From positions 1-37,633 of the forward strand of contig CALHXU010000172.1 in assembly GCA_938040365.1 (NCBI GenBank): a DNA stretch of 37,633 nucleotides, given 5' to 3'. Below are positions 14,439 through 37,487 of this stretch, in pieces (the stretch's first letter is position 1; every line of letters starts with the position of its first letter). A model generated the notes under the pieces. That model was not told the DNA's origin. It was given only the letters and a program-made list of their open reading frames with translations, and searched no databases. The position numbers were made by a program, and so were the translations under genes. This DNA comes from an uncultured Acidimicrobiales bacterium. Lineage in GTDB: Bacteria > Actinomycetota > Acidimicrobiia > Acidimicrobiales > SHLQ01.

Positions 14439-14932
14439 TCGAATCAGGCAAGCTTCCAAAGCCGCTCACCGGTTTGCTCAACATGAGCCGCAAGTACTCG
14501 CTCTGGGTCTACCAATGGGGTCTTGCATGCTGCGCGCTCGAGATGGGTGCAGCATTTGCATCGCCGCGCTATGACGTCATGCGCCTCGGCGTTATCCCGT
14601 TTCCTGCAAGTCCGCGCCAAGCAGATTTGGTCGTGGTCTCGGGAACCGTCACCGACAAAATGGCTCCAGCCATCCGCCGCCTCTACGAGCAGATGCCTGA
14701 ACCGAAATATGTGATTTCTATGGGGTCGTGCGCAAACTGCGGCGGACCGTACTGGGATTCGTACTCGGTAACCAAGGGAGTCGATCAGATAATTCCCGTC
14801 GATGTGTATGTTCCTGGATGCCCACCGCGACCAGAGGCGTTGCTCGAGGGAATCGTGATGCTTCAAGAACGCATCTTGAACGAAGACATGACCGCTCGCT
14901 GGACCGAAGAGCCAATCGTGGTGGGCGCCTAA
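14429..14932 (+). CDS. nuoB: NADH-quinone oxidoreductase subunit B, NuoB (cluster 2)
   Basis: NuoB carries the terminal 4Fe-4S cluster N2, which reduces quinone at the interface with NuoD. All four ligands are present: the adjacent pair Cys34-Cys35 in LACCALEM, Cys101 in GSCANCGG and Cys131 in [11 protein letters not shown]. The ATG at 14429 overlaps the nuoA stop by 10 bases and gives a 167-residue protein of standard length beginning [13 protein letters not shown]. The frame is open further upstream, but that part only shadows nuoA. The stop directly abuts the nuoC ATG. Confidence 0.96.
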
Positions 14933-15625: not shown

Positions 15626-15765
15626 TCAGCCACGCAATGACCTCCCACGCCGCACACGTCATGCCCACCGGCCTGGCCGGACCGAGCGATGCGGAAGCCC
15701 TCGCCGCACACATCATGCCCACCGGCCTGGCCGCACCGAGCGCTGTGGAAGGAAGAACCTCATGA
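15622..15765 (+). CDS. 47-aa tandem-repeat microprotein ORF between nuoC and nuoD
   Basis: An ATG at 15622 overlaps the nuoC stop (ATGA), and this frame's own stop (15763-15765) overlaps the nuoD start (ATGA at 15762). A 47-residue peptide is therefore coupled on both sides exactly like the genuine genes of the operon. It consists of two 18-residue repeats, AAHVMPTGLAGPSDAEAL and AAHIMPTGLAAPSAVEGR, after a short MISHAMTSH lead. It has no charge clusters, membrane segment or known motif. I know of no complex I subunit like it. It may be a real accessory peptide, a translational bridge needed for nuoD, or an inserted repeat that happens to keep the frame. Confidence 0.55.
   Translation: MISHAMTSHAAHVMPTGLAGPSDAEALAAHIMPTGLAAPSAVEGRTS
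15648..15751 (+). repeat. 54-bp-period tandem repeat between nuoC and nuoD
   Basis: Two units (15648-15697 and 15702-15751) match at 46 of 50 bases with a period of 54, which is 18 codons. They make up most of the 47-codon ORF between nuoC and nuoD. Three of the four differences change the encoded residue, so there is little sign of coding constraint. The unit is GC-rich and contains CCGGCCTGGCCGG-type palindromic sequence, so a mobile or slippage origin is possible. Confidence 0.8.
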
Positions 15766-16937
15766 CGGCGATTAGTGACGCAGAGAAGCTCCGTCAGCTC
15801 GGGGAACAAGCGACCGAAGCTCGGATGAACGTCGAGATCGAGACCGAGGGCATGACCCTCAACCTCGGTCCGCAGCACCCGGCGACCCACGGAACGCTTC
15901 GCATTATTGCAAAGCTCGATGGTGAACAGGTCGTCGTGGCCGAACCGGTCATGGGCTACATGCACCGCGGCTATGAAAAGCTCGCCGAAGTCCGCACGTA
16001 CCCGCAGGTCACCACGTTGGTGAACCGCATTGACTGGGTTGGCAGCTTCGCGAACGAAACGCCGTTCATTCTCGCCGCCGAGAAGTTGATGGAGATCGAG
16101 GCGCCGCCACGAGCCCAATACATCCGCACGGTACTCCACGAGATGAGCCGTATTGCCAACGTCATGTTGGGCATTGGCGATATGGGTGTGCAGATCGGCG
16201 CAGTGACCCCGATCTTCTTTGCCTTCCGCGATCGCGAGTACGTACTCAACCAGATCGAGGCGGTGACCGGTGGTCGCTTCCATCCGAACTTTGATCGCAT
16301 TGGTGGCCTGAAAGACGACCTGCCCGCAGGTTGGATCCAGAACACCCAAAACGCCATGGACAAGGTGCTCGAATTCTGTGATCAGATCGAGACCCTCATG
16401 TACGGCAACGAGATTTTCCAAGCCCGTACCCGCGGCATCGGCATCATTCCCAAAGACGTTGGTCTTTCCTATGGCGTTTCGGGTGTGAACATTCGTGGTT
16501 CGGGCGTCGATTGGGATGTCCGCCGAGACAACATGCCTCAAGGCCTTGTCTATGACCAGGTCGATTGGAAGGTCTGGACCCACCCCGACGGCGACTGCTA
16601 CAGCCGTATGTGGGTTCGCCTCCAAGAGGTTCGTGAAGGCGCGAAGATCGTCCAGCAACTGCTCAAGCAGATTCCCGCTGGCCCGGTGATGGCCAAGGTT
16701 CCGCGAATCATCAAGGTCCCCGCTGGCGAAGCGTTCGTCGAGACCGAGAACCCACTTGGGGTCATGGGTTACTACATCGTCTCGAAAGGTGACCTCAACC
16801 CGTATCGGGTCAAGATCCGCACGGCGTCGTTCAGCAACATCTCGATTACCCCATGGCTGCTCAAGGGCGTTTTCGTCCCTGACATCATCGCTATCCTCGG
16901 TTCGCTCTATTTCATCTTGGGAGACATCGATCGATGA
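15762..16937 (+). CDS. nuoD: NADH-quinone oxidoreductase subunit D, NuoD (cluster 2, altered quinone pocket)
   Basis: NuoD is the 49-kDa subunit that binds the quinone headgroup close to cluster N2. The 391-residue protein has LGPQHPATHG (His39, His43), MHRGYEK (Arg69) and the usual C-terminus ending GDIDR. Compared with Thermus Nqo4 at a constant offset of 5, the headgroup-binding His38 is kept as His43. Tyr87 is replaced by Trp92 (NRIDWVG), and Asp139, the partner of His38, by Gln144 (VQIGAVTP). The paired CxxC motifs of NiFe hydrogenases are absent, so it is not a membrane-bound hydrogenase large subunit. The ATG overlaps the stop of the 47-codon ORF, and the stop overlaps nuoH (ATGA). A longer in-frame extension upstream only covers that ORF's region. 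Confidence 0.95.
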   Translation: MTAISDAEKLRQLGEQATEARMNVEIETEGMTLNLGPQHPATHGTLRIIAKLDGEQVVVAEPVMGYMHRGYEKLAEVRTYPQVTTLVNRIDWVGSFANETPFILAAEKLMEIEAPPRAQYIRTVLHEMSRIANVMLGIGDMGVQIGAVTPIFFAFRDREYVLNQIEAVTGGRFHPNFDRIGGLKDDLPAGWIQNTQNAMDKVLEFCDQIETLMYGNEIFQARTRGIGIIPKDVGLSYGVSGVNIRGSGVDWDVRRDNMPQGLVYDQVDWKVWTHPDGDCYSRMWVRLQEVREGAKIVQQLLKQIPAGPVMAKVPRIIKVPAGEAFVETENPLGVMGYYIVSKGDLNPYRVKIRTASFSNISITPWLLKGVFVPDIIAILGSLYFILGDIDR

Positions 16938-17953
16938 TCAGCCTCGCATTTTGGATTGAGACCACCTTCCGATCGGTCGGCGGCTTGGCTGCCGTGCTTT
17001 TGCCCGCTGGTCCCATCGTTTACATCTTCTTGTTCAAGATGATGAGCTTTATGCAAAGCCGCCTCGGCCCTACCGAAGCTGGTCCCGCCGGAACGCTTCA
17101 GCTCATTGCTGAGGTCGGCAAGTGGATCCAAAAGGAAGACATCTTCCCTGAGAAGGCCGACCGCCTCATCTTTGCTGCAGCACCGTTTGTGGTGCTCGCG
17201 AGCTCGTTCCTGCTCGTCCTCGTCGTGCCGTTCGGCCCCGATGCGTGGTTCGTCAACCTCGATACCGGCATCTACTTTGCGCTGGCGGTCTCGTCGGTTT
17301 CGGTCATCGGCATCCTCATGGCCGGTTGGGCCTCCGCGTCGAAGTACTCGATGCTCGGTGGCCTCCGAGCTGCCGCCCAGCTCATTGCCTACGAGCTGCC
17401 GCTCGTCCTCGCCGTTATGGGCGTCGTCATTCAGGCCGGCACGCTCAACATGCAAGACATCGTGCTCGCTCAAGCCGAAGGTGAGATCTTTGGGTGGGGC
17501 GGCATTGGCAACCCGTTTATCATCACTCAATTCCTCGGCTTTGTGATCTTCATGATTGCAATGCAAGCCGAACTCACGCAGCCACCGTTCGATATGCCGG
17601 TTGCAGAATCTGAGCTCGTTACCGGTTACCTGACCGAGTATTCGGGAATCCGATTCCTGCTCTTCTTTATCGGCGAGTTCGCAACCGCTGGCGTGTTCGG
17701 GATGATTGCCTCGGTGCTCTTCCTCGGCGGTTGGTGGGTTCCAGGACTCGACCCAGATTCGAATCTGTTCAACATCATTGGACCCGGCGTTATGTTCGCG
17801 AAGGTCATGGGTGTCATGTTCCTCGTGTTCTGGTTCCGGTTTACGTACCCACGCTTCCGTGAAGATCAGCTGCAGAAGCTGGCATGGAAGGTGCTCATCC
17901 CGCTGGCGCTGCTCAACATTGTGTTCACCGGAATCTTGAAGGTGGTCTTCTAA
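16934..17953 (+). CDS. nuoH: NADH-quinone oxidoreductase subunit H, NuoH (cluster 2)
   Basis: This is the second NuoH, 339 residues with about eight membrane helices. It lacks the C-terminal extension of the first copy. The quinone-chamber loop is present as [17 protein letters not shown] (Glu213 onward) followed by [11 protein letters not shown]. Relative to the family consensus E-x-N-R-x-PFDL-x-EAE, the near-invariant Arg is Gln216 and the Glu of the EAE stretch is Val223, while Glu213, Asp220 and Glu225 remain. The first NuoH in the window keeps all of these. The gene overlaps nuoD by four bases and nuoI by one. Confidence 0.95.
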
Positions 17954-18486
17954 TGGGCATTGTTCCCGGCATGATCAAGGGCCTTGGCGTCACTGCCAAG
18001 ACCGCATACGAGACCATCTTTCCCGATGGACCACTGAAGCCGCCGAGCCCATCGAAGGGCGCGGTCACGATTCAGTATCCGCATGAGAAGGAAACCCCGA
18101 GCCCTCGTGCTCGCGGCGTTATTGCCCTTCAAGAGGACAACTGCACGGCGTGCATGCTGTGCGCTCGTGAGTGCCCGGACTGGTGCATCTACATCGAGGG
18201 TCACAAAGAGAAGGCCCCGCCTCGCCGTGCTGGTGGAAAGCCACGCCAGAAGAACAAGCTCGACCGTTTCGACATCGACTTTGCGCTGTGCATGTACTGC
18301 GGCATCTGTGTCGAGGTCTGCCCATTCGATGCGTTGTTCTGGAGCCCCGAGTACGAGTTCTCAGAGCCGCGCATTGCCGACCTGCTCCATGACAAGAGCC
18401 GCCTTGCCGAGTGGATGGAAACCGTTCCCGACTTCGAAGCCTATGAAGCAGGTTCCGAGGCCAAGGTTCGGAAGGTGCCTCGATGA
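17953..18486 (+). CDS. nuoI: NADH-quinone oxidoreductase subunit I, NuoI (cluster 2, Ndh-like)
   Basis: This is the 8Fe ferredoxin-like subunit of the second complex, 177 residues, with two full motifs at Cys64/67/70/74 and Cys113/116/119/123. The segment between them has a strongly basic loop (residues 84-105, nine Lys/Arg) and then [18 protein letters not shown]. That resembles cyanobacterial/plastid NdhI (YSIDFGVCIFCGNC) more than the NADH-type spacer of the first NuoI. In a complex without NuoEFG, NuoI lies next to the electron entry side, so the basic loop could dock an acidic ferredoxin; this is an inference. The ATG at 17953 shares its A with the nuoH TAA; the longer open frame upstream is a shadow. 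There is no His-rich tail. Confidence 0.94.
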
Positions 18487-19178
18487 CCAGTGCGCTCCTT
18501 CTCGCCCAGGTCGAATTCGACGTGGCCCAAAACATTGCGTTCGCGATCATCGCCGCAATCATGTTGATCTCGGCGTTCAAGATGGTGACCACCGGCAACG
18601 TTGTTCACGCAGCCCTCTACCTCGTGATCGTGCTTGCCGCCTCTGCTGCGATCTTCATCCTGCTTGGTTCGGACTTTGTTGGAGCGACTCAAGTGCTCGT
18701 CTACATCGGCGCGATCATCGTGCTGTTCTTGTTCGGCATCATGTTGACCAAGGCACAACTCGGTGATGATGACTCGGTCGAAAAAGAGCAGCGGAGCATG
18801 GGCGCGCTCGTTGGTCTGCTTCTCTTTGTCGTGATGGCATTTGCCCTCATCGACACCTTTGGTACTCAAGAGATCGAGTTCGGGAACCCCGAGCCGATCG
18901 CCTACGTTGCCGAACCGGTCGATGCGAACGATCTGCCAACGCCAGTCCGCGAGGCGCTCAACATCAGCGCTAATTCCGGCACGGTCGAGATCTCCGAAGC
19001 GCAGTTCGCAACCTTGCTTCCCGAGGTGCAGCGCCGCGTGCCCGGCGCTGAGGTTCGAGGCAACAACGCACAGATCGCCGATGCGATCTTTAGTCAGTAC
19101 ATCATCCCTTTCGAAGCAGTCTCGGTCTTGCTGCTCGCTGCACTCATCGGTGCGGTCGTCGTGGCCCGGAAAGAGTAG
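18483..19178 (+). CDS. nuoJ: NADH-quinone oxidoreductase subunit J, NuoJ (cluster 2)
   Basis: This five-helix membrane subunit of the second complex has 231 residues. The family helix [20 protein letters not shown] follows a conserved [11 protein letters not shown]. Between the fourth and fifth helices lies a long hydrophilic stretch (about residues 127-205), roughly twice the length seen in the first NuoJ. It contains a Glu/Gln-rich helical segment and ends in [16 protein letters not shown], the start of the last helix. The start overlaps the nuoI stop (ATGA). A nine-base gap with no obvious signal precedes nuoK. Confidence 0.94.
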
Positions 19179-19187
19179 GTCGGCACT

Positions 19188-19487
19188 ATGTTGCTCAACC
19201 AGTTCCTCTTGCTATCGGCACTCTTGTTCGCCATGGGCGTCTATGGCGTGCTCACCCGGCGCAATGGCGTGCTCGTCTTGATGTCGGTCGAACTCATCTT
19301 GAACGCAGTGAACATCAACCTCGTTGCTTTCGGAGCGTTCCAAGACAACGTCCAAGGCGACGTGTTTGCAATATTCGTCATTGCGGTCGCTGCCGCCGAA
19401 GTTGGGGTTGGCCTTGCGATGGTCTTGCTCATGTACCGAAACCGCCGAAGCATCGACTTCACCGAAGTCGATTTGATGAAGGGCTGA
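19188..19487 (+). CDS. nuoK: NADH-quinone oxidoreductase subunit K, NuoK (cluster 2)
   Basis: This small antiporter-like membrane subunit has 99 residues and three helices. Both functional glutamates are present, in SVELILNAVNI and AAAEVGVGLAM. It is clearly paralogous to the first NuoK but only moderately similar outside these motifs, which argues that the two clusters are old relatives and not a recent duplication. It starts with ATG nine bases after nuoJ and ends seven bases before nuoL. Confidence 0.95.
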   Translation: MLLNQFLLLSALLFAMGVYGVLTRRNGVLVLMSVELILNAVNINLVAFGAFQDNVQGDVFAIFVIAVAAAEVGVGLAMVLLMYRNRRSIDFTEVDLMKG

Positions 19488-19494
19488 TTCGTAG

Positions 19495-21825
19495 ATGTAT
19501 TCCGTCCTTGCCGTAGAGGCATTCGAGGCGTCCTTCACGACCGAAGGTAACTGGTTCCTCAAAAACGTCTGGCTGATCCCGCTCCTTCCGGCGGTCAGCT
19601 TCTTCCTGATCTTGGGCTTTGGAAAGAAGATGCCAAAGGGCGGTGCCGAGATCGGTATTGCCGCAATTGGCGCTGCGTTCTTGCTCGCAATCTTCGCAAA
19701 CGTTGCGTGGATCGATCATCGGGACAACTTCGATGGCGAAACACAAAGTGCGATCACCGGCATTGTCGACAGCCACAGCGAAGACGAAAACGCACTCGGC
19801 GATAACACCGATGCGAATGCACTCGGCGCGACGATCGACGTCACCGACGAAACGGGCGCAACCGAAACGGTTGACGTCGAGCTAACAGCCTTTGTTGAAG
19901 CCGGCGAGGGTGGCGAAGAGTCCCACCCTGCGATCGCGGTCGTGACGAGCCAAGAGTGGCTCGTGAACGGCGGGATTCCGTTCCTCGTAGGAACACTCCT
20001 CGATGGGCCTTCGGTGATGATGCTGTTCGTCGTCACGATGATCTCGCTTCTCGTGCACATCTACAGCACCGACTATGTGGCCGGCGACAGTCGCTTTACC
20101 CACTACTTCGCGTTCTTGTCGCTGTTCAGCTCATCGATGCTGATCTTTGTGCTCTCACGCTCGACGTTGCAAGCACTCGTTGCCTGGGAGTTGGTGGGCG
20201 TCTGTTCCTTTGTGCTGATCGGCCATTGGTGGGAAGAGAAACCCAACTCCGACGCCGCAATGAAGGCGTTCCTGACCAACCGTGTCGGCGACGTTGGTTT
20301 GCTCATCGGCATCATCATTTTGTTCTTCTCGGCGGGCGGAACGTTCGACATTATTCGCATCAACGAGCTGGCGCTCGCCGGAGAGATCAGCCAGACCGCA
20401 CTCACGTGGGCCGCAATCTCGCTCACCGCTGCGGTCATGAGTAAATCTGGTCAGTTCATTCTCCATACGTGGCTACCCGACGCGATGGCCGGACCGACAC
20501 CGGTGTCCGCGCTCATCCACGCCGCGACGCTCGTGACCGCGGGCGTCTTCCTCGTTGGACGCCTCTACCCGGTCTTCTTCATTGGCTATGGCATCGATGG
20601 TTCGAGCATCAACGGCCTTGCGATCATTGGTTCGATCACCGTCGTCGGCGCTGGCCTCGTGGCGTTCGTGCAGGACGACATCAAGAAGGTGCTCGCGTAC
20701 TCCACTGTTTCTCAGCTCGGCTACATGGTCCTCGCCCTCGGCGTCGGTGCATGGACCGCAGCGTTCTTCCATCTCTTTACCCACGCGTTCTTCAAGGCGG
20801 GCCTCTTCCTCGGTTCGGGCTCGGTCGCACACGCCGTACACAGCTTCGACATGAAGAAGGACATGGGCGGTTTGCGCAAGTACATGCCAACGACCCACAA
20901 GACCTTCCTGATCTGTTCGGTTGCGCTCGCAGGTGTATTCCCGACTGCCGGTTTCTGGTCGAAGGACGAAATTCTTGTCGGCACGGGCGGGCTCGGTGTG
21001 GGCTCTGGCAGCGCGAACGGTAGCTACCACCTGATGTTGATCATGGGCTTGGTCGGCGCTGCGCTCACCGGTGCCTACATGACCCGAGCGATTTACCTCA
21101 CGTTCTATGGCGAGTTCCGAGGCCATGGCGAACCGCACGAATCGGGTCCCCGAATCTTGTGGCCCCTACGAATCCTCAGCGTGTTCGCGCTCTTTGGCGG
21201 CTTGGTCAACCTTCCGCCGGGATTCATCACCGGAAGCCTCGAACCATGGCAAGAACGGTTCTTCCATTTCGTCGAGCCAGCTGCGGCATACTTCCCAGGA
21301 ATTGGCCATGCGGTTCCCAGTTACTGGTTGGCCGTCATCGCGAGCGTGATTGGACTCATGGGGCCAGCGGTTGCGTATTGGTACTACTTCATCAAGGTCG
21401 ATGGGCTAGCCAAGTCCACGGGCCAAAAGCTCACCGAGTTGCCCGACGGTCTCGTCTCGAACAACAAGCTGGCTGCGAGCGGTCACGCAATGTTGAAGAA
21501 CAAGTACTACCTCGACCACCTCTACAACGACGTGATTGTCGCCGCGGTCAAGGGCCCAATCGCAAAGCTCGCCTATCGATTCAACCAGCACTTCCTCGAC
21601 GAGATCGTCGACACCGCTGGTCGTACGTCGGTCAAGACCGGCCAAACGATCTACTCGGTGATCGACCAAGGCCTCATCGAGGGCACTGTCAATGGTTCAG
21701 GAAAGCTCTCGAACCGTGGCGGTGGCATCCTCCGCAAAATTCAAACCGGAAAGATCCAACAGTACGCAGCTCTGCTCTTTGCAGCGGCGACCGTGCTCGC
21801 TGGCATCTTCATCGTCTTCGTCTAA
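19495..21825 (+). CDS. nuoL: NADH-quinone oxidoreductase subunit L, NuoL (cluster 2, acidic insertion)
   Basis: This is the distal antiporter-like pump of the second complex, 776 residues. The core has the membrane Glu in ALVAWELVGVCSF, the Lys in MSKSGQFILHTWLPDAM and GPTPVSALIHAATLV. The segment after LTFYGEFRG runs straight into EPHESG, so the coiled coil of the first NuoL is absent. Instead there is an acidic hydrophilic stretch at about residues 77-152, between the second and third helices, rich in Asp, Glu, Thr and Ala with no Cys. It makes that loop some 60-70 residues longer than usual. A C-terminal region after the lateral helix is also extended (about residues 640-750). Confidence 0.95.
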   Translation: MYSVLAVEAFEASFTTEGNWFLKNVWLIPLLPAVSFFLILGFGKKMPKGGAEIGIAAIGAAFLLAIFANVAWIDHRDNFDGETQSAITGIVDSHSEDENALGDNTDANALGATIDVTDETGATETVDVELTAFVEAGEGGEESHPAIAVVTSQEWLVNGGIPFLVGTLLDGPSVMMLFVVTMISLLVHIYSTDYVAGDSRFTHYFAFLSLFSSSMLIFVLSRSTLQALVAWELVGVCSFVLIGHWWEEKPNSDAAMKAFLTNRVGDVGLLIGIIILFFSAGGTFDIIRINELALAGEISQTALTWAAISLTAAVMSKSGQFILHTWLPDAMAGPTPVSALIHAATLVTAGVFLVGRLYPVFFIGYGIDGSSINGLAIIGSITVVGAGLVAFVQDDIKKVLAYSTVSQLGYMVLALGVGAWTAAFFHLFTHAFFKAGLFLGSGSVAHAVHSFDMKKDMGGLRKYMPTTHKTFLICSVALAGVFPTAGFWSKDEILVGTGGLGVGSGSANGSYHLMLIMGLVGAALTGAYMTRAIYLTFYGEFRGHGEPHESGPRILWPLRILSVFALFGGLVNLPPGFITGSLEPWQERFFHFVEPAAAYFPGIGHAVPSYWLAVIASVIGLMGPAVAYWYYFIKVDGLAKSTGQKLTELPDGLVSNNKLAASGHAMLKNKYYLDHLYNDVIVAAVKGPIAKLAYRFNQHFLDEIVDTAGRTSVKTGQTIYSVIDQGLIEGTVNGSGKLSNRGGGILRKIQTGKIQQYAALLFAAATVLAGIFIVFV

Positions 21826-21849
21826 TCGAAACAAGCAGGATTTCAAACT

Positions 21850-23493
21850 ATGGAAATATTTCGTGAGTGGGGCCTAACGGCGGCAATCTTCTTGCCGCTC
21901 ATTGGTGGGGCCATCATGATGACGATCCCAAAGGCCGAAGAGAACCTTCACAAGATGATTGCGCTCATCACGTCGCTCGCCGTAGCGGCGATTGGCGTGG
22001 TCCTCCTCTTCGACTTTGACTACAGCCGCGCCGATGAGTTCCAGTGGGCCGTCGACATCGAATGGATCCAGATCATTCGAAGCGAGTACGCAATCGGAAT
22101 CGACGGCATGTCTCTACCGCTCCTCATGCTGACGATGCTGGTTGTCCCGCTCGTCATCATCTACTCGTGGAACCATTTCCCCGAACCCGCAAACCCCAAA
22201 GCGTTCCTGATTTTGATCCTGGTACTCCACACCGGCATGATCGGCTCGTTCCTCGCTCGAGATCTCGTGTTGTTCTTCGTGTTCTTCGAGGTCGTGCTTT
22301 TGCCGATGTTCTTCAAGATCGCGGTATGGGGCGGCCCCGACCGCAAGTACGCCTCGCTGAAGTTCTTCCTGTACACGCTGTTTGGCTCGGCGCTCATGCT
22401 CGTCAGCTTCCTCGCATTGTTCTTCCTCGCCGGCGGCGAGACTTTCTCGATCGTCGGTCTTTCCGAAGCGGTTCAAGCGAATGGCGTGAGCCGCACGGCC
22501 CAGATCTGGATCTTTGGTGGCATGCTGCTCGGCTTTGGTATCAAGGTGCCTTTGTTCCCGTTCCACACCTGGCTTCCCGATGCGCACACCCAAGCGCCGA
22601 CCGCGGGTTCGGTTATCTTGGCTGCGGTCTTGCTCAAGCTCGGCACCTACGGCTTTGTCCGAATCGCAATTCCGATTCTTCCCGAAGCGGCTTCGGTCTG
22701 GGCGCCATGGATCGGCCTGCTCGCTGTCATCGGCATCATCTACGGTGCGCTCGGCTGTTTGGCCCAGACCGACATGAAGCGACTCATTGCCTTCTCGTCG
22801 GTTGCCCACATGGGCTACATCATGCTCGGGATCTCGACCCTGACCGACTGGGGTATCAACGCCGCAATCTTCGGTATGGTCGCCCACGGCCTCATCACCG
22901 GCATGTTGTTCTTCATCGCCGGGTCGATCAAGGAGCGGTACCACACCCTCGAGATCAAACGCCTCGGTGGTCTGCTAATCCAGGCACCAAAGATGGGTTG
23001 GATTCTCGGATTTACGACCATGGCGTCGCTCGGCCTTCCCGGCCTCGCCGGATTCTGGGGCGAGTTCCCAGCCATCCTCGCGGCGTACAACCCGGCGAAT
23101 GGTTTGAGTGAAGGCCTGTTCCGCACGTACATGGTCGTCGCCGCGATCGGCACCGTCCTCGCTGCGGGCTATCTGCTCTGGTTGCTCCAGCGCACCGCCT
23201 TCGGTATGCCGAGCGAAGAGTTTGCGACGAACCCCGAGATCGTCGACGCCAATCGGAACGAGTACATGGCGTGGGCGCCGATGCTTTTCCTCGTCTTGCT
23301 CTTCGGCCTGGTCCCAGGCCTTATCTTTAACGTCACCGACCCAGCGGTCGATGCAAACCTGTCAGAGTGCTTCCAAGCCGATCTTGGCGACGGTGATGAG
23401 GACACCTTCGATCTGGGTGTCTGTGAACGAGAGGGACTCGACGTTGCCCTCGCCAACCTCGGCGTCGTCGTCTCGACCGCCGAGGGAGAGTAA
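21850..23493 (+). CDS. nuoM: NADH-quinone oxidoreductase subunit M, NuoM (cluster 2)
   Basis: This is the middle proton-pumping subunit of the second complex, 547 residues. The signatures are FFVFFEVVLLPMFF (functional Glu), GFGIKVPLFPFHTWLPDAH (Lys) and QAPTAGSVILAAVLLKLGTYG. The C-terminus extends about 50 residues beyond the last helix as an acidic segment containing two Cys (SECFQ and GVCER) that could form a disulfide if exposed outside. There is one NuoM in this cluster, so it is not the two-NuoM variant of complex I. The ATG is 24 bases after nuoL; three bases separate the stop from nuoN. Confidence 0.95.
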   Translation: MEIFREWGLTAAIFLPLIGGAIMMTIPKAEENLHKMIALITSLAVAAIGVVLLFDFDYSRADEFQWAVDIEWIQIIRSEYAIGIDGMSLPLLMLTMLVVPLVIIYSWNHFPEPANPKAFLILILVLHTGMIGSFLARDLVLFFVFFEVVLLPMFFKIAVWGGPDRKYASLKFFLYTLFGSALMLVSFLALFFLAGGETFSIVGLSEAVQANGVSRTAQIWIFGGMLLGFGIKVPLFPFHTWLPDAHTQAPTAGSVILAAVLLKLGTYGFVRIAIPILPEAASVWAPWIGLLAVIGIIYGALGCLAQTDMKRLIAFSSVAHMGYIMLGISTLTDWGINAAIFGMVAHGLITGMLFFIAGSIKERYHTLEIKRLGGLLIQAPKMGWILGFTTMASLGLPGLAGFWGEFPAILAAYNPANGLSEGLFRTYMVVAAIGTVLAAGYLLWLLQRTAFGMPSEEFATNPEIVDANRNEYMAWAPMLFLVLLFGLVPGLIFNVTDPAVDANLSECFQADLGDGDEDTFDLGVCEREGLDVALANLGVVVSTAEGE

Positions 23494-23496
23494 CCC

Positions 23497-25008
23497 ATGT
23501 CGCTTTCGATACTCGCCCAGGTAGCGCCCTTCGAGCGCCCCGCGATCGACTGGCACGCGCTCGCGCCTGAGATTGTGCTGCTGAGCTTCGGCGCGCTGCT
23601 CACGCTGCTCGATGTGATCTTCCTCGAGCGAGGTCGCAAGTACACCTCGACGATTGCGGGAATTGGCTTGCTCGCAACGCTGATCCCGGTGATCACCTTG
23701 GCGATCGATGGACAAGATCGTGTGCTCTTCAATGGCGCCTTTGTGGTCGACAACTTCTCGCTCATCATGAAGGCACTCTTCCTGCTTTCTGGCTACGTCG
23801 TCGTCCTTTTGTCGACGAACTACATTGCCGAAGGCGACTACTGGGAGAACGAGTACTACTCGCTCTTGCTCGCATCGATTCTCGGTATGGTGGCGATTTC
23901 GTCGGCCCGAGATCTCATCACCATCTTTGTGGCGTTCGAGTTGTTGTCGATCCCGGCATACCTCATGGCTGCGTGGCGCAAACGCGACCTCAAGTCGAAC
24001 GAAGCGGGACTGAAGTACTACCTGATGGGCGTGTTTGCATCGTCGATCATGCTCTATGGCATGTCGCTGCTTTATGGACTCTCAGGGTCGACGATCTTGG
24101 CCGAAATTGGCGAGGCTGCGAGCGATGGGCAATCGAACTCGGTACTGAGCCTGGCAGTCGTCTTCATTGTTGCTGGCTTTGCGTTCAAGGTCTCTGCGGT
24201 GCCATTCCATACGTGGGCGCCCGATACCTATGAGGGTGCGCCGACGCCGGTGACAGCCTTCTTCGCCGTCGCCGCAAAGGCCGCTGGCTTTGTGGCGCTC
24301 GTCCAAATCTTGTTCGTCGCGTTCTGGCAGCAGGCCGACGTCTACGAGCCACTGATTTGGATTCTCGCTGCGGCGTCGATGACCGTGGGTAACCTCATTG
24401 CGCTCCGTCAGACCAACATGGTTCGACTTGTTGCGTACTCCGGTGTTGCCTCTGCGGGATACATCCTCGCCCCACTCGCAGTAGCGGGCGGAAGTGCTGG
24501 GGTTGGTGACGAAGCGCTGCGCGCCGTCGTGACCTACCTCGTGATCTATGCCGCGATGAACCTCGGCGTCTTTGCTGTTGTCCTCGCGATTGCCCGAAAG
24601 ACCAAGTCGGCTGAGATCTCGAGCTACTCGGGCCTCTTCCACTATGCACCGGGCCTCACCGCCGCGATGACCGTCTTCTTGATGGCGCTTGCGGGCATCC
24701 CACCGCTCGGCGGGTGGTATGCAAAGTTCGTCGTGTTCCGCGCGTTGATCAACGCCGACACCTTCGGCGGATACTCGCTTGCGATCGTCGCTGCGGTCAA
24801 TTCGGTCGTTGCGCTCTACTACTACCTTTCGGTATTGCGCACGATGTGGGCCGATGACGCCCCCGACGGCGACCTCACCCCACTTCGCGTTCCGCCATCG
24901 CTCATCGGTGCGTTAGGTCTCACCGTCTTTGCGACCCTCGCCTTTGGTGTGTGGCCACGGATCGTCGACACCGTCTCTGATGTAACCCTCCTCGGGTTGG
25001 GCGGCTGA
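23497..25008 (+). CDS. nuoN: NADH-quinone oxidoreductase subunit N, NuoN (cluster 2)
   Basis: This is the proximal antiporter-like pump of the second complex, 503 residues. The functional Glu lies in TIFVAFELLSIPAY and the Lys in AFKVSAVPFHTWAPD, followed by TYEGAPTPVTAFF. A conserved MTVGNLIALRQTNMVRLVAYS segment precedes the later helices. It closes the nuo genes of this cluster. Its TGA stop is embedded in CTGA, which provides a possible CTG start for the downstream methyltransferase. Confidence 0.95.
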   Translation: MSLSILAQVAPFERPAIDWHALAPEIVLLSFGALLTLLDVIFLERGRKYTSTIAGIGLLATLIPVITLAIDGQDRVLFNGAFVVDNFSLIMKALFLLSGYVVVLLSTNYIAEGDYWENEYYSLLLASILGMVAISSARDLITIFVAFELLSIPAYLMAAWRKRDLKSNEAGLKYYLMGVFASSIMLYGMSLLYGLSGSTILAEIGEAASDGQSNSVLSLAVVFIVAGFAFKVSAVPFHTWAPDTYEGAPTPVTAFFAVAAKAAGFVALVQILFVAFWQQADVYEPLIWILAAASMTVGNLIALRQTNMVRLVAYSGVASAGYILAPLAVAGGSAGVGDEALRAVVTYLVIYAAMNLGVFAVVLAIARKTKSAEISSYSGLFHYAPGLTAAMTVFLMALAGIPPLGGWYAKFVVFRALINADTFGGYSLAIVAAVNSVVALYYYLSVLRTMWADDAPDGDLTPLRVPPSLIGALGLTVFATLAFGVWPRIVDTVSDVTLLGLGG

Positions 25009-26523: not shown

Positions 26524-28518
26524 GTGAGCGAGCCAACGATTGAGGTGTACGAGGTCGAGGATCGGACCTTTCCGCCATCGGAAGCCTTTCAGGCAACAGC
26601 GTTATCTTCAGATCGATCGCTCTATGACGAGGCAAACGCCGATTACGAAGCGTTTTGGGCGCGCCAAGCCCGTGAGCTGATCACTTGGGACAAGCCGTTC
26701 ACCAAGGTCCTCGAGTGGGATCTGCCGTACGCCAAGTGGTTCAGCGACGGCCAACTCAACATGAGTTACAACTGCCTGGACCGCCACGTCGAGGCAGGCC
26801 GCGGCGACAAGATTGCGTATTACTTCGAGGGCGAGCCTGGCGATACCAAGACCTTCACCTATGCCGAGCTGCTCGATGAGGTGAAGAAGTTTGCGAACGG
26901 CCTCTTGGGCCTTGGCCTCGAGAAGGGGGACCGGGTCGCGATCTACATGCCGATGATCATCGAGCTGCCGATAGCGATGCTCGCGTGCAGTCGAATCGGT
27001 GTTGTGCACTCGGTCATCTACGGCGGGTTTAGCCCGGAGGCAATTCGAGGCCGGTGCGAAGACGCCGACTGCAAAGCGGTCATCACCGCGGACGCGGGCT
27101 ATCGACGAGGTGTTCCCTCAGGCCTGAAGCCTCTCGTCGACGAAGCGCTCGCCGACGGAGCGCCAACGGTCAACAACGTCATCGTGTACGACCGTTGCAA
27201 TACCGATATTGACATGGTTGAAGGACGCGATATTTGGTGGCACGACCTCGTTGCGGATGCGTCGCTCGATTGTCCGGCAGAACCAATGGATGCCGAGCAA
27301 CTTCTGTTCTTGCTCTACACGTCGGGGACAACAGCAAAGCCCAAGGGCATCATGCACACGACGGGCGGCTACCTGACCCAAGCGTGCTTCACCCACAAGT
27401 ACGTGTTCGATATCGACCCAGAGAACGATGTGTACTGGTGTGGCGCCGACATTGGCTGGATCACCGGTCACAGCTACATCGTTTATGGCCCGCTGACCAA
27501 CGGCGTCACGAGCTTGATGTATGAGGGGACTCCCGATACACCACGGATGGAAGAGCGGGTCGGTAACGACCGAGCAAACTGGCACAAGGGTCGCCTGTGG
27601 GACATCGTCGAACGTTACGGGGTGACCCAGTTCTACACGGCGCCAACCGCAATCCGAACCTTCATGAAATGGGGCGACGAAGAAGTCGAAGGCTATGACC
27701 TGTCCTCGATCCGAGTCCTCGGCACGGTCGGCGAACCCATCAACCCAGAAGCGTGGATGTGGTACCACGAAAACATTGGCAAGGAAGCTCGACCGATCGT
27801 CGACACGTGGTTTCAGACCGAGACCGGCGGCCACGTCCTCACGCCGCTGCCCGGCGTCGCAACGACCAAACCCGGTTCGGCGGTCGGCGGCATCCCAGGG
27901 ACCTTCCCCGAACTCGTCGACGACGCGGGAAATGTTATTACGAAGGGCGGCGGGTACCTCACGCTGGCGCGGCCGTGGCCATCGATGCTTCGTGGCATCT
28001 GGCGAAACCCCGAGCTCTACATGTCGACCTATTGGGAACAGTATCCCGGCCGCTATTTCTGTGGCGATGGTGCCAAGCTCGACGACGACGGGTACCTCTG
28101 GCTGTTAGGTCGGGTCGACGATGTGATGAACGTTTCGGGCCATCGTATCTCGACCACCGAAGTCGAATCGGCGCTCGTCGAACATCCAGCGGTCGCTGAA
28201 GCTGCGGTCGTCGGTGCAGCCGATGACCTCAAGGGCCAAGCGATCGTCGGCTACACAATCCTCGTTGCCGACGTCGAGCCAGGCGATGACATTCGCAGCG
28301 AGCTGTCCGATTTTGTTGCGACCAAACTGGGGCCGATCGCTCGACCTCGCGATGTCTACCTCGTCGATGACCTGCCAAAGACTCGTAGTGGCAAGATCAT
28401 GCGCCGGCTGCTTCGTGACATCGCCGCTGGAAACGCGCTGGGCGATACGTCGACCTTGGCCGACAGCGACGTGGTCGAGGCAATCCGAGTTGGTTCTGCC
28501 GAGGCAGACGAGGAGTAA
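26524..28518 (+). CDS. acs: Acetyl-CoA synthetase-like acyl-CoA synthetase, copy 1
   Basis: This AMP-forming ligase activates acetate or a related short acid to its CoA thioester through an acyl-adenylate. Of 664 residues, the P-loop-like A3 motif [19 protein letters not shown] is central, [16 protein letters not shown] starts the mobile C-terminal domain, and [17 protein letters not shown] holds the catalytic Lys usually controlled by acetylation. In the acyl pocket the residue matching Trp414 of Salmonella Acs is Phe430 (DTWFQTETGG), and the preceding ADVGWVTGH signature reads ADIGWITGH. That makes a slightly different pocket likely. The GTG start has an excellent ribosome site. A paralogue follows 111 bases downstream. 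Confidence 0.92.
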   Translation: MSEPTIEVYEVEDRTFPPSEAFQATALSSDRSLYDEANADYEAFWARQARELITWDKPFTKVLEWDLPYAKWFSDGQLNMSYNCLDRHVEAGRGDKIAYYFEGEPGDTKTFTYAELLDEVKKFANGLLGLGLEKGDRVAIYMPMIIELPIAMLACSRIGVVHSVIYGGFSPEAIRGRCEDADCKAVITADAGYRRGVPSGLKPLVDEALADGAPTVNNVIVYDRCNTDIDMVEGRDIWWHDLVADASLDCPAEPMDAEQLLFLLYTSGTTAKPKGIMHTTGGYLTQACFTHKYVFDIDPENDVYWCGADIGWITGHSYIVYGPLTNGVTSLMYEGTPDTPRMEERVGNDRANWHKGRLWDIVERYGVTQFYTAPTAIRTFMKWGDEEVEGYDLSSIRVLGTVGEPINPEAWMWYHENIGKEARPIVDTWFQTETGGHVLTPLPGVATTKPGSAVGGIPGTFPELVDDAGNVITKGGGYLTLARPWPSMLRGIWRNPELYMSTYWEQYPGRYFCGDGAKLDDDGYLWLLGRVDDVMNVSGHRISTTEVESALVEHPAVAEAAVVGAADDLKGQAIVGYTILVADVEPGDDIRSELSDFVATKLGPIARPRDVYLVDDLPKTRSGKIMRRLLRDIAAGNALGDTSTLADSDVVEAIRVGSAEADEE

Positions 28519-28526
28519 CCGCTCGC

Positions 28527-28616
28527 ACAAACAGGGTTGACCGGCAGTACGTACAAACTAACTAATTTGTCTGTGCCTCCCGTCTCGTAGGAGCCTTCTG
28601 CAATTTCGCTCCTACG
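28527..28616 (+). promoter_or_regulatory. acs2 promoter region with inverted repeat and leader hairpin
   Basis: A good -35 (TTGACC, 28537-28542) is followed after 16-18 bases by a weak -10 near TAACTAAT (28559-28566). ACAAAC occurs at 28527-28532 and 28553-28558. The second copy faces TTTGTC (28566-28571), giving the same half-sites as the palindrome before acs1. Downstream, CGTAGGAGC (28586-28594) and GCTCCTACG (28608-28616) form a perfect 9-bp stem with a 13-base loop ending 13 bases before the acs2 ATG, likely a leader hairpin. Confidence 0.5.
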
Positions 28617-28629
28617 TAGAGTCAACGCA

Positions 28630-30633
28630 ATGCCTGAACCCCTGCTGAGCGATTCGCCATTCGAGGTCTACGACGCTCCGACGCGCACGTTCGCCCCGTC
28701 CGAGGCACTCAAATCGACCGCACTCACGAAGGACGCCGCGCTCTACGAGGAGGCGAACGCCGATTACGAAGCGTTCTGGGCTCGCCAAGCGCGCGAACTC
28801 GTCACGTGGCACAAGCCCTTCACCAAGATCCTCGAATGGGATCAGCCACATGCGAAATGGTTCGGCGACGGCCAACTCAACATGAGTTACAACTGCCTGG
28901 ACCGCCACGTTGATGAGGGACGTGGGGACAAAGTGGCGTACTACTTCGAGGGTGAGCCCGGCGACACCCGAACCCTCACCTATGCCGAGCTGCTCGATGA
29001 GGTAAAGAAGTTTGCGAACGTATTGAAGTCGCTCGGACTTGAAAAAGGCGACCGTGTGGCAATAACCATGCCGATGATCGTCGAACTCCCGATAGCGATG
29101 CTCGCCTGCAGCCGAATCGGTGTTGTGCACTCGGTCATCTTTGGTGGTTTCAGCCCCGATGCGATCCGGGATCGTTGTGAGGACGCTGCGTGCAAGGTGG
29201 TTATCACCGCCGACGCGGGCTATCGCCGCGGTGCGCCCTCGGCGCTCAAACCAAACGTTGACCGAGCGCTCTCTGCTGGTGCGCCAACGGTCGAGCACGT
29301 CGTTGTCGTCGACCGCTGCGGAACCAAAATCGACATGGTCGAAGGGCGCGATATCTGGTGGCACGAAGCAATGGCAGATGCTTCGCTCGAGTGCCCCGCC
29401 GAGCCTATGGATGCCGAGCAACTCCTGTTTCTGCTCTACACGTCGGGCACGACGGCAAAGCCCAAGGGCATCATGCACACGACGGGTGGATATCTCACTC
29501 AGGTTGCCTTCACCCATAAGTACGTCTTCGACATCAAACCCGAAACCGACGTTTTCTGGTGTGCGGCAGATGTTGCTTGGGTAACCGGGCACAGCTACGT
29601 CGTCTATGGCCCGTTAAGCAATGGTGTTACGAGCGTCATCTATGAAGGCACGCCCGACACTCCCCGCGAAGACGAACGGATTGGCGCCGAACGGTCGAGC
29701 TGGCACAAAGGTCGCTACTGGGACATCATCTCCCGATATGGCGTAACCCAGCTGTACACCGCACCCACCGTGATCCGAACCTTCATGAAGTGGGGAGCTG
29801 ACACGGTCTCTGGATATGACCTTTCGTCGCTTCGAGTGCTCGGATCGGTAGGGGAGCCAATCAACCCCGAGGCGTGGATGTGGTATCACGACAACATCGG
29901 CAAGGGATCGTTGCCGATCGTCGATACGTGGTGGCAGACCGAGACCGGTGGCCACATGATCTCACCACTTCCCGCCGTGACGACAACAAAACCAGGATCT
30001 GCGTGTCACGGAATTCCCGGCGTGTTTCCCGAATTGGTCGACGATGCTGGTGTGCCCGTCAGCAAGGGCAGCGGCTATCTCACGATCGCAAAGCCTTGGC
30101 CTGCAATGCTTCGCGGCATTTGGGGCGACCCTGAGCGCTATCAATCCACGTACTGGGAGCGGTTTCCGGGCCGTTATTTCGCCGGTGACGGAGCAAGACT
30201 CGACGACGACGGCTACCTCTGGCTTTTGGGCCGGGTCGATGATGTCATGAACGTGTCCGGTCACCGCATTTCTGCGACCGAGGTCGAATCGGCGCTCGTC
30301 AACCACCAAAGTGTGGCCGAGGCTGCGGTGGTCGGAGCGAGCGATGATGTACGCGGACGGGCCATTGTTGGGTACACGATTCTCGCCGAGGATGCAGTTG
30401 TGACCGACGAGCTTCGTCGGGATCTCGCTACCCATGTGGCGGACACACTTGGCCCGATCGCACGGCCTCGCGACGTCTACCTCGTGAAAGATCTTCCGAA
30501 GACTCGGAGCGGCAAAATTATGCGGCGGCTGCTGCGTGACATTGCCGAGGGTGAGACGCTCGGTGACACCACCACGCTCGTCGACGAAACCGTCGTCGAG
30601 GCAATCCGACTCGGCGCCGCAGCTGCCGAGTAA
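28630..30633 (+). CDS. acs: Acetyl-CoA synthetase, copy 2
   Basis: This 667-residue AMP-forming acetyl-CoA synthetase is a close paralogue of the gene before it. It has the A3 motif [19 protein letters not shown], the hinge region [16 protein letters not shown] and the catalytic C-terminal [17 protein letters not shown]. The acetate-pocket Trp is conserved (Trp435 in [10 protein letters not shown]), so acetate is the most likely substrate. It would assimilate acetate into acetyl-CoA in the cytoplasm. The ATG lacks a strong ribosome site; the only good AGGAG nearby is locked in the 5' arm of the leader hairpin. Long nucleotide-identical blocks shared with copy 1 point to duplication with gene conversion. 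Confidence 0.94.
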
Positions 30634-35409: not shown

Positions 35410-35560
35410 CGCCGCGGGCCGGGATCCGTCGCCTAGCGGCTCCTCGACCCGTCTGCGGAACGCAAGCGCCTTTTCGCTCGCACCGGCTTCGCAGCTGCGA
35501 GCTACCTGCGATGTTCTGAGCCCTTAGGCGAAGAACTCGAGTTTGGGCGAAGCCCAATAC
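35410..35560 (+). repeat. Dispersed structured intergenic repeat, copy 1
   Basis: The first 67 bases (35410-35476) match 37339-37405 at 65 positions. The body then contains a hairpin GCTCGCA (35476-35482) / TGCGAGC (35496-35502), a conserved linker, the palindrome AACTCGAGTT and a terminal hairpin TTGGGC-GAA-GCCCAA (35543-35557). Copies 2 and 3 keep the layout with covarying stems. This and copy 2 fill most of the 428-base gene-free stretch 35405-35832. An open frame on the opposite strand only translates the repeat. Confidence 0.85.
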
Positions 35561-35570
35561 CGCTGCGGTT

Positions 35571-35702
35571 GCCTGGCGGCCTTTTCGCTCGGGCGGCAAA
35601 GCCACCCGAGCTACCTGTGCGATGTTTGGAGCCGGAGGCGAGAAACTCGAGTTTGGGCGAAGCCCAATACCTCGATACAAGAACTCGAGTTTGGGTGAAG
35701 CG
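35571..35702 (+). repeat. Dispersed structured intergenic repeat, copy 2 plus fragment
   Basis: Copy 2 (35571-35670) lacks the 67-base head but has the hairpin GCTCGGGCGGC (35587-35597) / GCCACCCGAGC (35601-35611) with an AAA loop. The same linker, CTCGAG palindrome and terminal TTGGGC-GAA-GCCCAA stem (35653-35667) follow. A further fragment of the end, GAACTCGAGTTTGGGTGAAG, lies at 35681-35700. The rest of the stretch to 35832 holds no gene. TTGACG (35776-35781) and TATGAA (35814-35819) are promoter-like elements for tRNA-Trp, but their spacing is poor. Confidence 0.85.
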
Positions 35703-35832
35703 CTGATTTTGGAAGTTCTTAGGTGCCTGAGCGCGATGGCTTGGGCTTCCGGCGTACTCTGGTGAGGACTGATCGTTGACGGTGTGTGGGCGAGGCTCAC
35801 GCCGCTGATATCGTATGAAAGCTAGGAAATCT

Positions 35833-35905
35833 AGGGCGTTAGCTCAATTGGTAGAGCACCGGTCTCCAAAACCGAAGGTTGCGGGTTCAAGTCCCTCACG
35901 CCCTG
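35833..35905 (+). tRNA. tRNA-Trp (CCA)
   Basis: The acceptor AGGGCGT (35833-35839) pairs perfectly with ACGCCCT (35898-35904), and the discriminator is G. The anticodon CCA is at 35866-35868 in loop CTCCAAA. The T stem GCGGG/CCCTC contains one C-U mismatch and the anticodon stem has a terminal C-A mismatch, so the fold is slightly imperfect but still convincing. Its position directly before secE-nusG is the common bacterial arrangement. Confidence 0.93.
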
Positions 35906-35957
35906 CAAAACACATCCCCACCGATTCAAACTGCTGGCATGTTCAGCGGAGGCAACC

Positions 35958-36350
35958 GTGTCCCAACCAATGAACCGAGAACAACGGCGAATGCTCAAAA
36001 AGCAGGGCCAGTCTGTCAACGACGCAGGACAAGTCGTCGAGGAACGGTCGAACAAGCCAGCAAGTTCGGGTGCTGGTAGCGGTGGTCGCATCACCGAAAA
36101 GGGTGGGGTCAAAGAGGCGAACCCAAAGCGTCGAGAAGCGCCCGCCCAGGCCGAAGAGCGCACCAGCCCGGTCCAGTTCGGCAAAGAGGTCAAGTCCGAG
36201 CTCAGCAAGGTCTCTTGGCCAACGCGCACCGAGGTAATCAACTACTCGATCGTCGTGCTGATCACGGTGTTCGTGCTCACGCTGTTCATCGCAGGGAACG
36301 ACTGGGTGTTCTCGACATTTGTGCTTGAGCTCTTTGAGCCACGTCCATGA
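35958..36350 (+). CDS. secE: Preprotein translocase subunit SecE
   Basis: SecE is the essential small subunit that clamps SecY in the protein-export channel. The 130-residue protein has a long charged, low-complexity N-terminal region (about 1-75). The conserved amphipathic segment VKSELSKVSWPTRTEV follows and then one membrane helix (about 95-118). The GTG at 35958 sits five bases after GGAGG. An ATG at 35970 is a less well placed alternative. The stop overlaps the nusG ATG by four bases, the usual secE-nusG coupling. Confidence 0.95.
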   Translation: MSQPMNREQRRMLKKQGQSVNDAGQVVEERSNKPASSGAGSGGRITEKGGVKEANPKRREAPAQAEERTSPVQFGKEVKSELSKVSWPTRTEVINYSIVVLITVFVLTLFIAGNDWVFSTFVLELFEPRP

Positions 36351-37336
36351 GCGACAACGATGCCCCCGAGGGTGTCGACGTAGAACCGACACAAGATTCC
36401 AACGCTGGAGATGTCACCGACGCGCCGACTGAAGTAAAACCAGAGGCTGTGTCTGAAGAATCCGCAATCACCGAACCCGAGCTCGACTCGGCCGTCGAAC
36501 CAATCGACGACGCCGAAACGGTCGAGCCGGAGATGACAAACGCTGCGCCTACCGACGAACCGGCCGACGAGCCAGCATCAGTCGACGAGCCAGCATCAGA
36601 CGAAGCTGAAGTAGCTGCGATCACAGACGAGCCTGTGGCTACCGATGAACCTGTAGTTGCTGAATCGCCTGATGCTGCTGAGGAGTCTGCGCCAGACGAC
36701 GAAGTCGAACCAGCGTTGTCAGATGTGGGCGGCGAGGACGAGCTCTTCGACGAGGATGCTCCTGCACCCCGTCCAAAGAGTGCCTTTGACCGTCCGGGTC
36801 GTTGGTATGTCGTGCACACCCAAAGCGGGCACGAAAAGAAGGCGCAGCAAAACCTTGCGGCGCGTACCGAGTCGATGAACATGGAAGACCGGATCTTCGA
36901 GAGCGTCATCCCAATGGAAGATGTTGTCGAGTTCAAGAACGGTAAGAAGGTCGTCGTCCAAAAGAAGATGTTCCCTGGCTACTTGCTCGTCCGAGCCCAC
37001 CTCGATGATGACGCGTGGTACGTGGTGCGAAACACTCCTTCAGTTGTCAACTTTGTTGGTTCTGGTGGGAAGCCGTCGCCGCTGCTCCGTCGCGAGGTCG
37101 AGAACTTTTTGGCTGTGCCAGAAGAGGGAGCTCCTGCGGCGCCCAACAAGCGTCAGACCGCCCGCCTCGAATACGAAATGGGCGAAACGGTGCGAGTCAA
37201 GGAAGGCCCATTTGCGGACTTCTCTGGCGAGATCGTCGAAATCAACGCCGATCAGCTCAAGGTCAAGGTCCTCGTCAACATCTTTGGCCGCGAGACCCCA
37301 GTCGAACTCGAATTCTCCCAGATAGCGCGGCTGTAA
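36347..37336 (+). CDS. nusG: Transcription termination/antitermination factor NusG, acidic N-terminus
   Basis: NusG binds RNA polymerase through its NGN domain and links it to Rho or ribosomal protein S10 through its KOW domain. In this 329-residue protein the NGN domain starts at RWYVVHTQSGHEKKA (Arg152) and includes KKMFPGYLLVRAHLDDDAW. The KOW motif is in GETVRVKEGPFADFSGEIVE near residue 280. The first 150 residues are a low-complexity run of Asp, Glu, Ala, Pro, Val and Ser. Actinobacterial NusG proteins often carry such an acidic extension, though this one is at the long end. It overlaps secE (ATGA). Confidence 0.96.
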   Translation: MSDNDAPEGVDVEPTQDSNAGDVTDAPTEVKPEAVSEESAITEPELDSAVEPIDDAETVEPEMTNAAPTDEPADEPASVDEPASDEAEVAAITDEPVATDEPVVAESPDAAEESAPDDEVEPALSDVGGEDELFDEDAPAPRPKSAFDRPGRWYVVHTQSGHEKKAQQNLAARTESMNMEDRIFESVIPMEDVVEFKNGKKVVVQKKMFPGYLLVRAHLDDDAWYVVRNTPSVVNFVGSGGKPSPLLRREVENFLAVPEEGAPAAPNKRQTARLEYEMGETVRVKEGPFADFSGEIVEINADQLKVKVLVNIFGRETPVELEFSQIARL

Positions 37337-37338
37337 AT

Positions 37339-37487
37339 CGCCGCGGGCCGGGATCCGTCGCCTAGCGGCTTCTCGACCCGTCTGCGGAACGCAAGCGCGT
37401 TTTCGTCCGGGAGGCAAAGCCACCCGGACTACCCGTGCGACGTGTGGAAGCGCAGGCGAGAAACTCGAGTTGAGCGAAGCTCGATAC
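37339..37487 (+). repeat. Dispersed structured intergenic repeat, copy 3
   Basis: This copy begins three bases after the nusG stop. The 67-base head (37339-37405) is nearly identical to copy 1. It is followed by hairpin GTCCGGGAGGC (37405-37415) / GCCACCCGGAC (37419-37429) with an AAA loop, and by the terminal hairpin TTGAGC-GAA-GCTCGA (37470-37484). Both stems differ from copies 1 and 2 by paired changes. It occupies most of the 242-base nusG-rplK gap. The rest (37488-37578) must hold the rplK ribosome site (AGGAAT near 37565) and perhaps a promoter. Confidence 0.85.

Follow-up and report, generated by a model that had tools for sequence, protein, structure and literature searches.

What kind of repeat lies between the genes of the tRNA-secE-nusG-rplK region of an uncultured Acidimicrobiales bacterium, and what preserves its hairpins? 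The stretch analyzed here, called the window, is the whole of contig C172 (37,633 bases), one of 277 in a draft genome of 3.6 Mb. The gene order at the locus is tRNA-Thr, tRNA-Met (ending at 35405), repeat copies A and B, tRNA-Trp, secE, nusG, repeat copy C, and rplK, with the protein names as given by a first-pass annotation. That annotation had described a dispersed, structure-selected family and had named as candidates a miniature inverted-repeat transposable element (MITE), an element of the repetitive extragenic palindromic (REP) kind moved in trans, and a structured RNA motif. The dispersed, structure-selected, and REP-like parts of this interpretation were supported, and the MITE and a known structured RNA were not. 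Our preferred reading, given a probability of roughly 0.6, is a new family resembling REPs and bacterial interspersed mosaic elements (BIMEs), with its structure selected as single-stranded DNA and its copies moved in trans.

The copies span 35410-35702 and 37339-37487 and comprise three mosaic copies and a truncated fourth. They are probably BIME-like elements in which a hairpin, hp0, stands beside a two-hairpin element, E, defined as hp1 followed by hp2. The first and last stems that had been listed for the three copies were all read directly. The first stem is GCTCGCA/TGCGAGC in copy A (35476-35482 with 35496-35502), GCTCGGG/CCCGAGC in copy B (35587-35593 with 35605-35611), and GTCCGGG/CCCGGAC in copy C (37405-37411 with 37423-37429). 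On the minus strand it forms hp0, a stem-loop with an unpaired GTAG at one end in all three copies, as in GTAG-type REPs: GGTAG, stem CTCGCA, loop GCTGCGAAGCCGG, and TGCGAG in copy A (35476-35506), GGTAG with CTCGGG...CCCGAG in copy B (35587-35615), and GGTAG with TCCGGG...CCCGGA in copy C (37405-37433). The last stem belongs to hp2 on the plus strand and reads TTGGGC/GCCCAA in copies A and B (35543-35557 and 35653-35667) and TTGAGC/GCTCGA, with one T.G wobble, in copy C (37470-37484). The whole hp2 is TTGGGC-gaa-GCCCAA-TAC at 35543-35560 (GTAT-headed on the minus strand) and 35653-35670, and TTGAGC-gaa-GCTCGA-TAC at 37470-37487. The linker had rightly been called conserved, but it is itself a covarying hairpin, hp1, which had been missed. 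In copy A (35507-35539, plus strand), hp1 reads CGAT-GTTCT-GA-GCC-ctta-GGC-GA-AGAAC-TCG and has a compensated stem; it lies at 35618-35649 (plus) in copy B, and at 37436-37467 (plus) in copy C it is degenerate. R1, a covariance model of hp1 and its flanks built from 46 sequences, matched copies A and B with an E value of 5e-12 and copy C with 0.087. A 67-nucleotide (nt) upstream module, M0, is common to copies A and C (plus strand, 35410-35476 and 37339-37405; 97% identity, blastn E value 5.4e-26) and missing from copy B; copies B and C have 92 nt in common (83% identity, blastn E value 1.6e-19). There are four occurrences of AACTCGAGTT in the window, the additional one standing ahead of a broken hp2 in a truncated fourth unit (35674-35702, plus strand). 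All three copies combine hp0, hp1, and hp2, the mosaic of different REP-type hairpins that characterizes a BIME, and hp0 is also found close to some other copies of E.

The element E is dispersed well beyond this locus. A covariance-model search of this and related genomes, as the annotation had suggested, gave at least 26 R1 matches at E values ≤0.09 in this genome, with 150 of 3061 first-look candidates scored, and two more near 8. At E values ≤0.1, matches were found in at least 20 of 59 genomes, namely 11 of 11 in the genus (from at least 1 to 44 copies), 5 of 8 in the rest of the family, and 4 of 40 in other families (best 1.6e-4); these genome counts are lower bounds, with part of the first-look candidates scored. 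From 175 model matches, 161 were kept after removal of context duplicates and three judged false; three of those kept, from other families (L122, L123, and L124), are probably chance matches. An exact core pattern was found in 46 stretches from 11 assemblies of a bacterial and archaeal genome collection, 45 of them titled Acidimicrobiales or Acidimicrobiaceae and one Pirellulaceae. On the latter contig (L047, CALHZT010000088.1), possibly a misbinned acidimicrobial contig, the copy of E stands behind a ferredoxin-like gene (by eye). A stretch of 1606 nt (L195 and L206) is 99.9% identical across genomes G004 and G007, through either recent transfer or cross-binning. Using blastn, copy C was placed at 23 positions in the genome at E values ≤1, several of them short or weak, and 11 of the 23 are no more than about 500 nt away from the end of a contig; the repeats therefore probably break assemblies of such genomes. 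No match to E was obtained in IMG/VR (exact pattern) or in phage and plasmid records (blastn). Rfam, at gathering score and at E values ≤1, returned only tRNAs and two sub-threshold chance matches; with nothing except tRNAs above the curated scores, the structured RNA motif, as a known family, was set aside.

The element is structurally constrained and strand-asymmetric. The layout of hp1 is CGA, usually an extra pyrimidine, GTTNN, GA, an inner stem, a loop, the inner stem, GA, NNAAC, and TCG (consensus CGAY-GTTNN-GA-GCC-loop-GGC-GA-NNAAC-TCG), with a conserved tandem G.A mismatch. Only two pairs vary in the 46-sequence seed, which was chosen by a fixed pattern. Parsing of 149 of the 161 copies gave 91 distinct hairpins, with copy C of the window among the 12 omitted. 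At stem positions 4-5, these hairpins show 42 two-sided Watson-Crick changes versus an average of 7.9 and at most 19 among 5000 shuffles, a test that overstates covariation because shuffles ignore relatedness and the search model favors paired arms. Position 4 is paired in 87/91 and position 5 in 79/91, and GTT/AAC is constant through parsing. The arm types are GTTTC/GAAAC (47), GTTTG/CAAAC (6), GTTCT/AGAAC (5), GTTGT/ACAAC (4), GTTGC/GCAAC (4), GTTCC/GGAAC (2), and GTTTT/AAAAC (1), with GTTGT/GCAAC, containing a T.G wobble, in 7. GA/GA is kept in 72 of the 91, the stem is continuous without GA in 7, the G.A is swapped to GG/AA or AA/GG in 2, and 10 are mixed or one-sided. Six copies have a longer inner stem (GCAAACGC-TTC-GCGTTTG and variants).

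Several types of hp2 exist, and a type was assigned for 113 of 161 copies. Besides the window type there are type I (GTTA-GT-GA-GC-GAA-GC-GA-AC-GGC) and, elsewhere, type II (TTNNN, GA, stem-loop-stem, GA, NNNAA, TAC), in which all four outer pairs are formed in 37/44 distinct sequences (mean 3.71 of 4, versus 3.06 shuffled with a maximum of 3.30). When hp0 was collected by its GCTGCGRAGCCGG loop alone, six stem pairs were present in 13/14 copies, with seven different stem sequences that include a self-complementary one; a broken hybrid is among the copies, and TAG precedes the stem in 9/14. With the loop CCGGCTSCGCCGG, the stems are offset by a T.T mismatch (by eye), and with four other loops six pairs are formed in 4/17, some being chance or offset stems. 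The case for hp0 rests on the shared loop and head and not on a tetranucleotide count, because GTAG is no commoner before a stem than some other tetranucleotides (34 distinct, versus 62 for GATG and 81 for GAAG). Stem positions thus covary in hp1, hp2, and hp0 instead of varying independently, which sustains the selection on structure that had been proposed. The mismatches are G.A on the E strand and C.T on the complement, and the E strand folds better in 74/81 hairpins with DNA energies (means -6.5 versus -5.9) and is more stable in 69/81 with RNA energies; the mean difference is 2.0 kcal/mol for RNA and 0.65 for DNA.

The 3' end of E frequently abuts a stop codon or the 3' end of a tRNA or transfer-messenger RNA (tmRNA) gene. 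Genes were called with our own simple gene finder (hexamer score). E lies outside called genes in 144 of 161 copies and inside in 17, extragenic and near the 3' ends of open reading frames (ORFs) as REPs generally are; genes flank both sides in 116 copies, and 28 are at contig or locus edges. Among the 116, a stop faces hp2 in 75 (41 + 34) and a start in 41 (25 + 16). For the docking test, the 3' end of E was defined in 127 of 161 copies, and the facing stop lies -1 to +10 nt from it in 30/79, versus 1/60 on the 5' side (Fisher p 5.5e-8); with rougher ends (131 defined), it lies at -1 to +3 in 23/80. The 79 copies with a facing stop represent 59 gene clusters, of which 26 show docking, and within the copies' own gaps docking was found in 26/55, versus 5.8 ± 2.2 expected, and on the 5' side in 1/45 versus 4.5. 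The stop codon falls 18-21 nt inside hp2 in 9/79, so the element itself supplies the stop codon there. In the window locus it is M0, not E, that sits 2 nt behind nusG (stop codon at 37334-37336) and 4 nt behind tRNA-Met. Behind tmRNA, double hairpins like those of E begin 2 nt past CCA in G000, G011, and G035, other hairpins are present in G001, G004, G008, and G009, and an ordinary terminator is present in G005 (all by eye). No target motif was apparent by eye at the 3' end of E away from genes.

Some further observations concern the neighbors of E. In a copy overlapping the pnp stop (L168:716-760), both hp2 arms (GGTAA/TTACC) fit the last codons of the gene, and the inner arm looks as if it had adapted to a fixed gene end. 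Among 378 proteins beside E, the listed clusters of three or more contained no transposase or recombinase by eye, but did include an HNH-type cluster with three members. Three copies of E (L115, L131, and L190) are situated in or next to related genes of G008, G006, and G004; the G006 protein matches an HNH endonuclease (Pfam E value 8e-5) and the G004 protein matches nothing.

Docking directly behind stop codons, tRNA genes, and tmRNA genes also suits hairpins kept for a role in RNA, as tandem-hairpin terminators or 3'-end stabilizers of the docked gene that spread and were then selected at gene ends. In G000, G009, G011, and G035, a C-TTCG-G hairpin whose stem varies among the genomes comes after the tmRNA 3' end (by eye), and in Escherichia coli REPs near stop codons affect translation (PMC12306157). 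However, E is antisense in docked genes, whose mRNA would carry C.U and not the conserved G.A, and that strand folds somewhat less well. In the sense of the docked gene, the 40 nt that follow hp2 contain no T run longer than 3 in 160/161 copies; the exception, by eye the tmRNA copy of this genome, has a run of 5. Of the 116 copies flanked by genes on both sides, 41 lack a stop codon facing hp2. An RNA role is therefore regarded as unlikely, although it fares best among the rivals. For most docked genes the G.A mismatches fall on the antisense strand, which tilts the choice between DNA and RNA toward the single-stranded DNA of the REP/BIME-like reading.

At a given site E occurs in some relatives and not in others, which agrees with the annotation's REP-like element moved in trans, and no transposase lies beside E in the loci read. 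Between nusG and rplK, E is present in this genome, G010, and G007, with differing surroundings, and none was seen in G002, G003, G004, G006, or G008 (by eye). Between tRNA-Met and tRNA-Trp, G007 equals G010 plus 116 nt at one point, consisting of two identical 38-nt pieces from the 3' end of E with 40 nt between them; no target duplication is visible at this one clean empty site. The ends of pnp are alike, and E docks 0-2 nt past the stop in G005, G007, and G010, with none seen in G001, G002, G003, or G006. At msrA, comparison of G010 with G007 showed the gene end and E duplicated together, so that the X-E-X arrangement there is not the long target duplication that it resembles. In G009, two direct copies of E enclose a lipoprotein-like gene (by eye; L184:1501-2370); in relative G005 the place holds no gene.

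These comparisons bear on the remaining rivals. Spread might have proceeded without transposition: tandem duplication and slippage of replication at the hairpins would account for local copies, and gene conversion or homologous recombination for distant ones. The msrA duplication speaks for this, as do arrays of about 51 and 57 nt (L116 and L133) arranged head to tail. Yet E stands beside many unrelated genes, as the 59 clusters show, and slippage does not predict polar docking, leaving this explanation somewhat less credible than an RNA role. A MITE of a DDE-type insertion sequence, one of the annotation's candidates, would match the small, non-coding, dispersed nature of E, but no terminal inverted repeats were seen, the 5' and 3' ends of E differ, and the single clean empty site is without target duplication; we consider it very improbable. 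Integron-type attC sites (boxes RYYYAAC...GTTRRRY), likewise hairpins recognized on one strand and favored by the lipoprotein-like gene between two copies of E (L184), can practically be dismissed, since the GTT and AAC of hp1 are at the outer end, the reverse of the attC R boxes, and the integron-integrase model TIGR02249 had matches above its 265-bit cut-off in 0/19 genomes (sub-cut-off matches in 19/19 genomes and 14/14 control genomes; best 101.7).

Under the REP/BIME-like reading, E would be non-autonomous and would be copied or moved in the form of a single-stranded DNA hairpin, and the mover would be a Y1 (HUH) transposase of the REP-associated tyrosine transposase (RAYT), or TnpAREP, kind acting in trans. 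REP DNA is bound and cut by TnpAREP in single-stranded form, with only one strand recognized, and in E. coli a mid-stem mismatch is required (PMC8266576). The tandem G.A mismatch of E may similarly mark the right strand, like the conserved mid-stem mismatch of E. coli REPs. PF01797 matched 6 genes in this genome and 1-7 in 17/19 genomes of the family (f1), with 55 matches in total. Twenty-six Y1 loci were scanned with up to 1.5 kb on each side (less at contig ends), and one, L180, was excluded as it had been fetched for its copy of E, with the Y1 gene about 2.5 kb away.

Several results weigh against the REP/BIME-like reading. The associated transposase for which the annotation had proposed a search did not appear: R1 at E values ≤0.01 matched in 0 of the 25 remaining loci, drawn from the 55 matches in the family (one match at 0.57, in L161, was not counted), and no hp0 was seen by eye in the same 25, with other GTAG-plus-stem hits in 6. 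A cognate Y1 gene flanked by two repeat copies, the REP/RAYT unit or REPtron, was accordingly not found for E in these loci. The Y1 genes carry other palindromes, of the GGGG type in 9/25 and others by eye. hp1 lacks the GTAG tag. The copy number of E is low for REPs, which usually exceed 100 copies per genome (PMC2817692). Pairing in hp1 is imperfect, with stem position 5 unpaired in 12/91 hairpins, mostly as G.G, the form it takes in copy B of the window; the arms GTTTG/GAAAC, with G.G, account for 7, plus a few others. At least one X-E-X pattern is a tandem duplication and not a transposition, and transposition itself was not observed. The responsible enzyme may be missing from these draft genomes.

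The palindromes of the Y1 genes are of interest in themselves. Y1 genes in L033, L154, L155, L161, and others are flanked by arrays of GGGGTCWGACCCC or GGGGACAGGCCCC palindromes and resemble published TIRYT units. In this genome (L028/L280, G000 C273:1-1100), a Y1 gene with flanking GGGTGCCAGGCACC-type palindromes lies between the stops of pnp and an anti-sigma-type gene (by eye). One palindrome starts directly after the pnp stop, and the other end of the unit is 0-1 base from the anti-sigma-type stop; the unit docks at the pnp stop where E docks in three relatives.

E bears on how REP-type repeats move. The strand that is likely recognized can be read from its sequence (G.A versus C.T), its insertion niche is known with nearly single-nucleotide precision, and the occupied sites vary among relatives, which makes both mobility and the function of the mismatch directly testable.

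Elsewhere in the window, an adjacent pair of similar genes of about 665 codons each (26524-30633) has DNA blocks 73-85% alike, and repeated blocks about 12 kb apart (8173-24299) belong to what we take, by eye, to be two diverged NADH-dehydrogenase (nuo) gene sets.

No description of E was found in literature searched on Acidimicrobiia and REP, on palindromic repeats, and by the core letters, with most subscription papers outside this scope. The word Actinobacteria is absent from PMC3733652 and PMC2817692, and a REP count is listed for Acidimicrobium ferrooxidans (PMC12306157). The GTAG REPs and BIMEs of E. coli, Pseudomonas, and Stenotrophomonas (PMC3733652 and PMC2817692) are, like E, short covarying palindromes outside genes that form hairpin mosaics. 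They lie next to ORF 3' ends, where their GTAG termini often provide a TAG stop (PMC3733652); this position and the lending of stop codons are seen here as well, and hp0 has the GTAG head. In contrast, the body of E comprises two hairpins and contains a tandem G.A mismatch, hp1 is flanked by CGAY in place of GTAG or GTGG 5' of the hairpin, the element has a polarity toward the stop codon, and a cognate RAYT did not turn up among the loci read; on the complementary strand, hp2 of type II shows GTAT or GTAC. To the known REP niche E adds sharp, one-sided docking of an element of fixed polarity, the polarity of published REPs being outside this comparison. CGTC REPs are reported without any transposase (PMC3733652) and resemble E in being REP-like with no dedicated transposase known. 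Their CGTC tag and CCA tail (PMC3733652) differ from the tag, stem, and tail of E, whose stems begin with GTT and not AT.

REPINs have a two-hairpin design. Those of Pseudomonas (PMC3116915) are, like E, small mobile DNA made of REP hairpins. In TIRYT units, RAYT genes are flanked by GGGGWSAS-type repeats (PMC3733652); the TIRYT-like units of the present genomes share no palindrome sequence with E or hp0 (by eye), and one of them docks at the pnp stop used by E in relatives. Taken further, and tentatively enough that we would call it doubtful, E could form a third REP class, undescribed in the papers searched, in which a Y1 transposase acting in trans inserts a single-stranded DNA hairpin with tandem sheared G.A pairs, of fixed polarity, precisely where genes end on their 3' side (at stop codons and behind tRNA and tmRNA), a niche shared with its transposase units.

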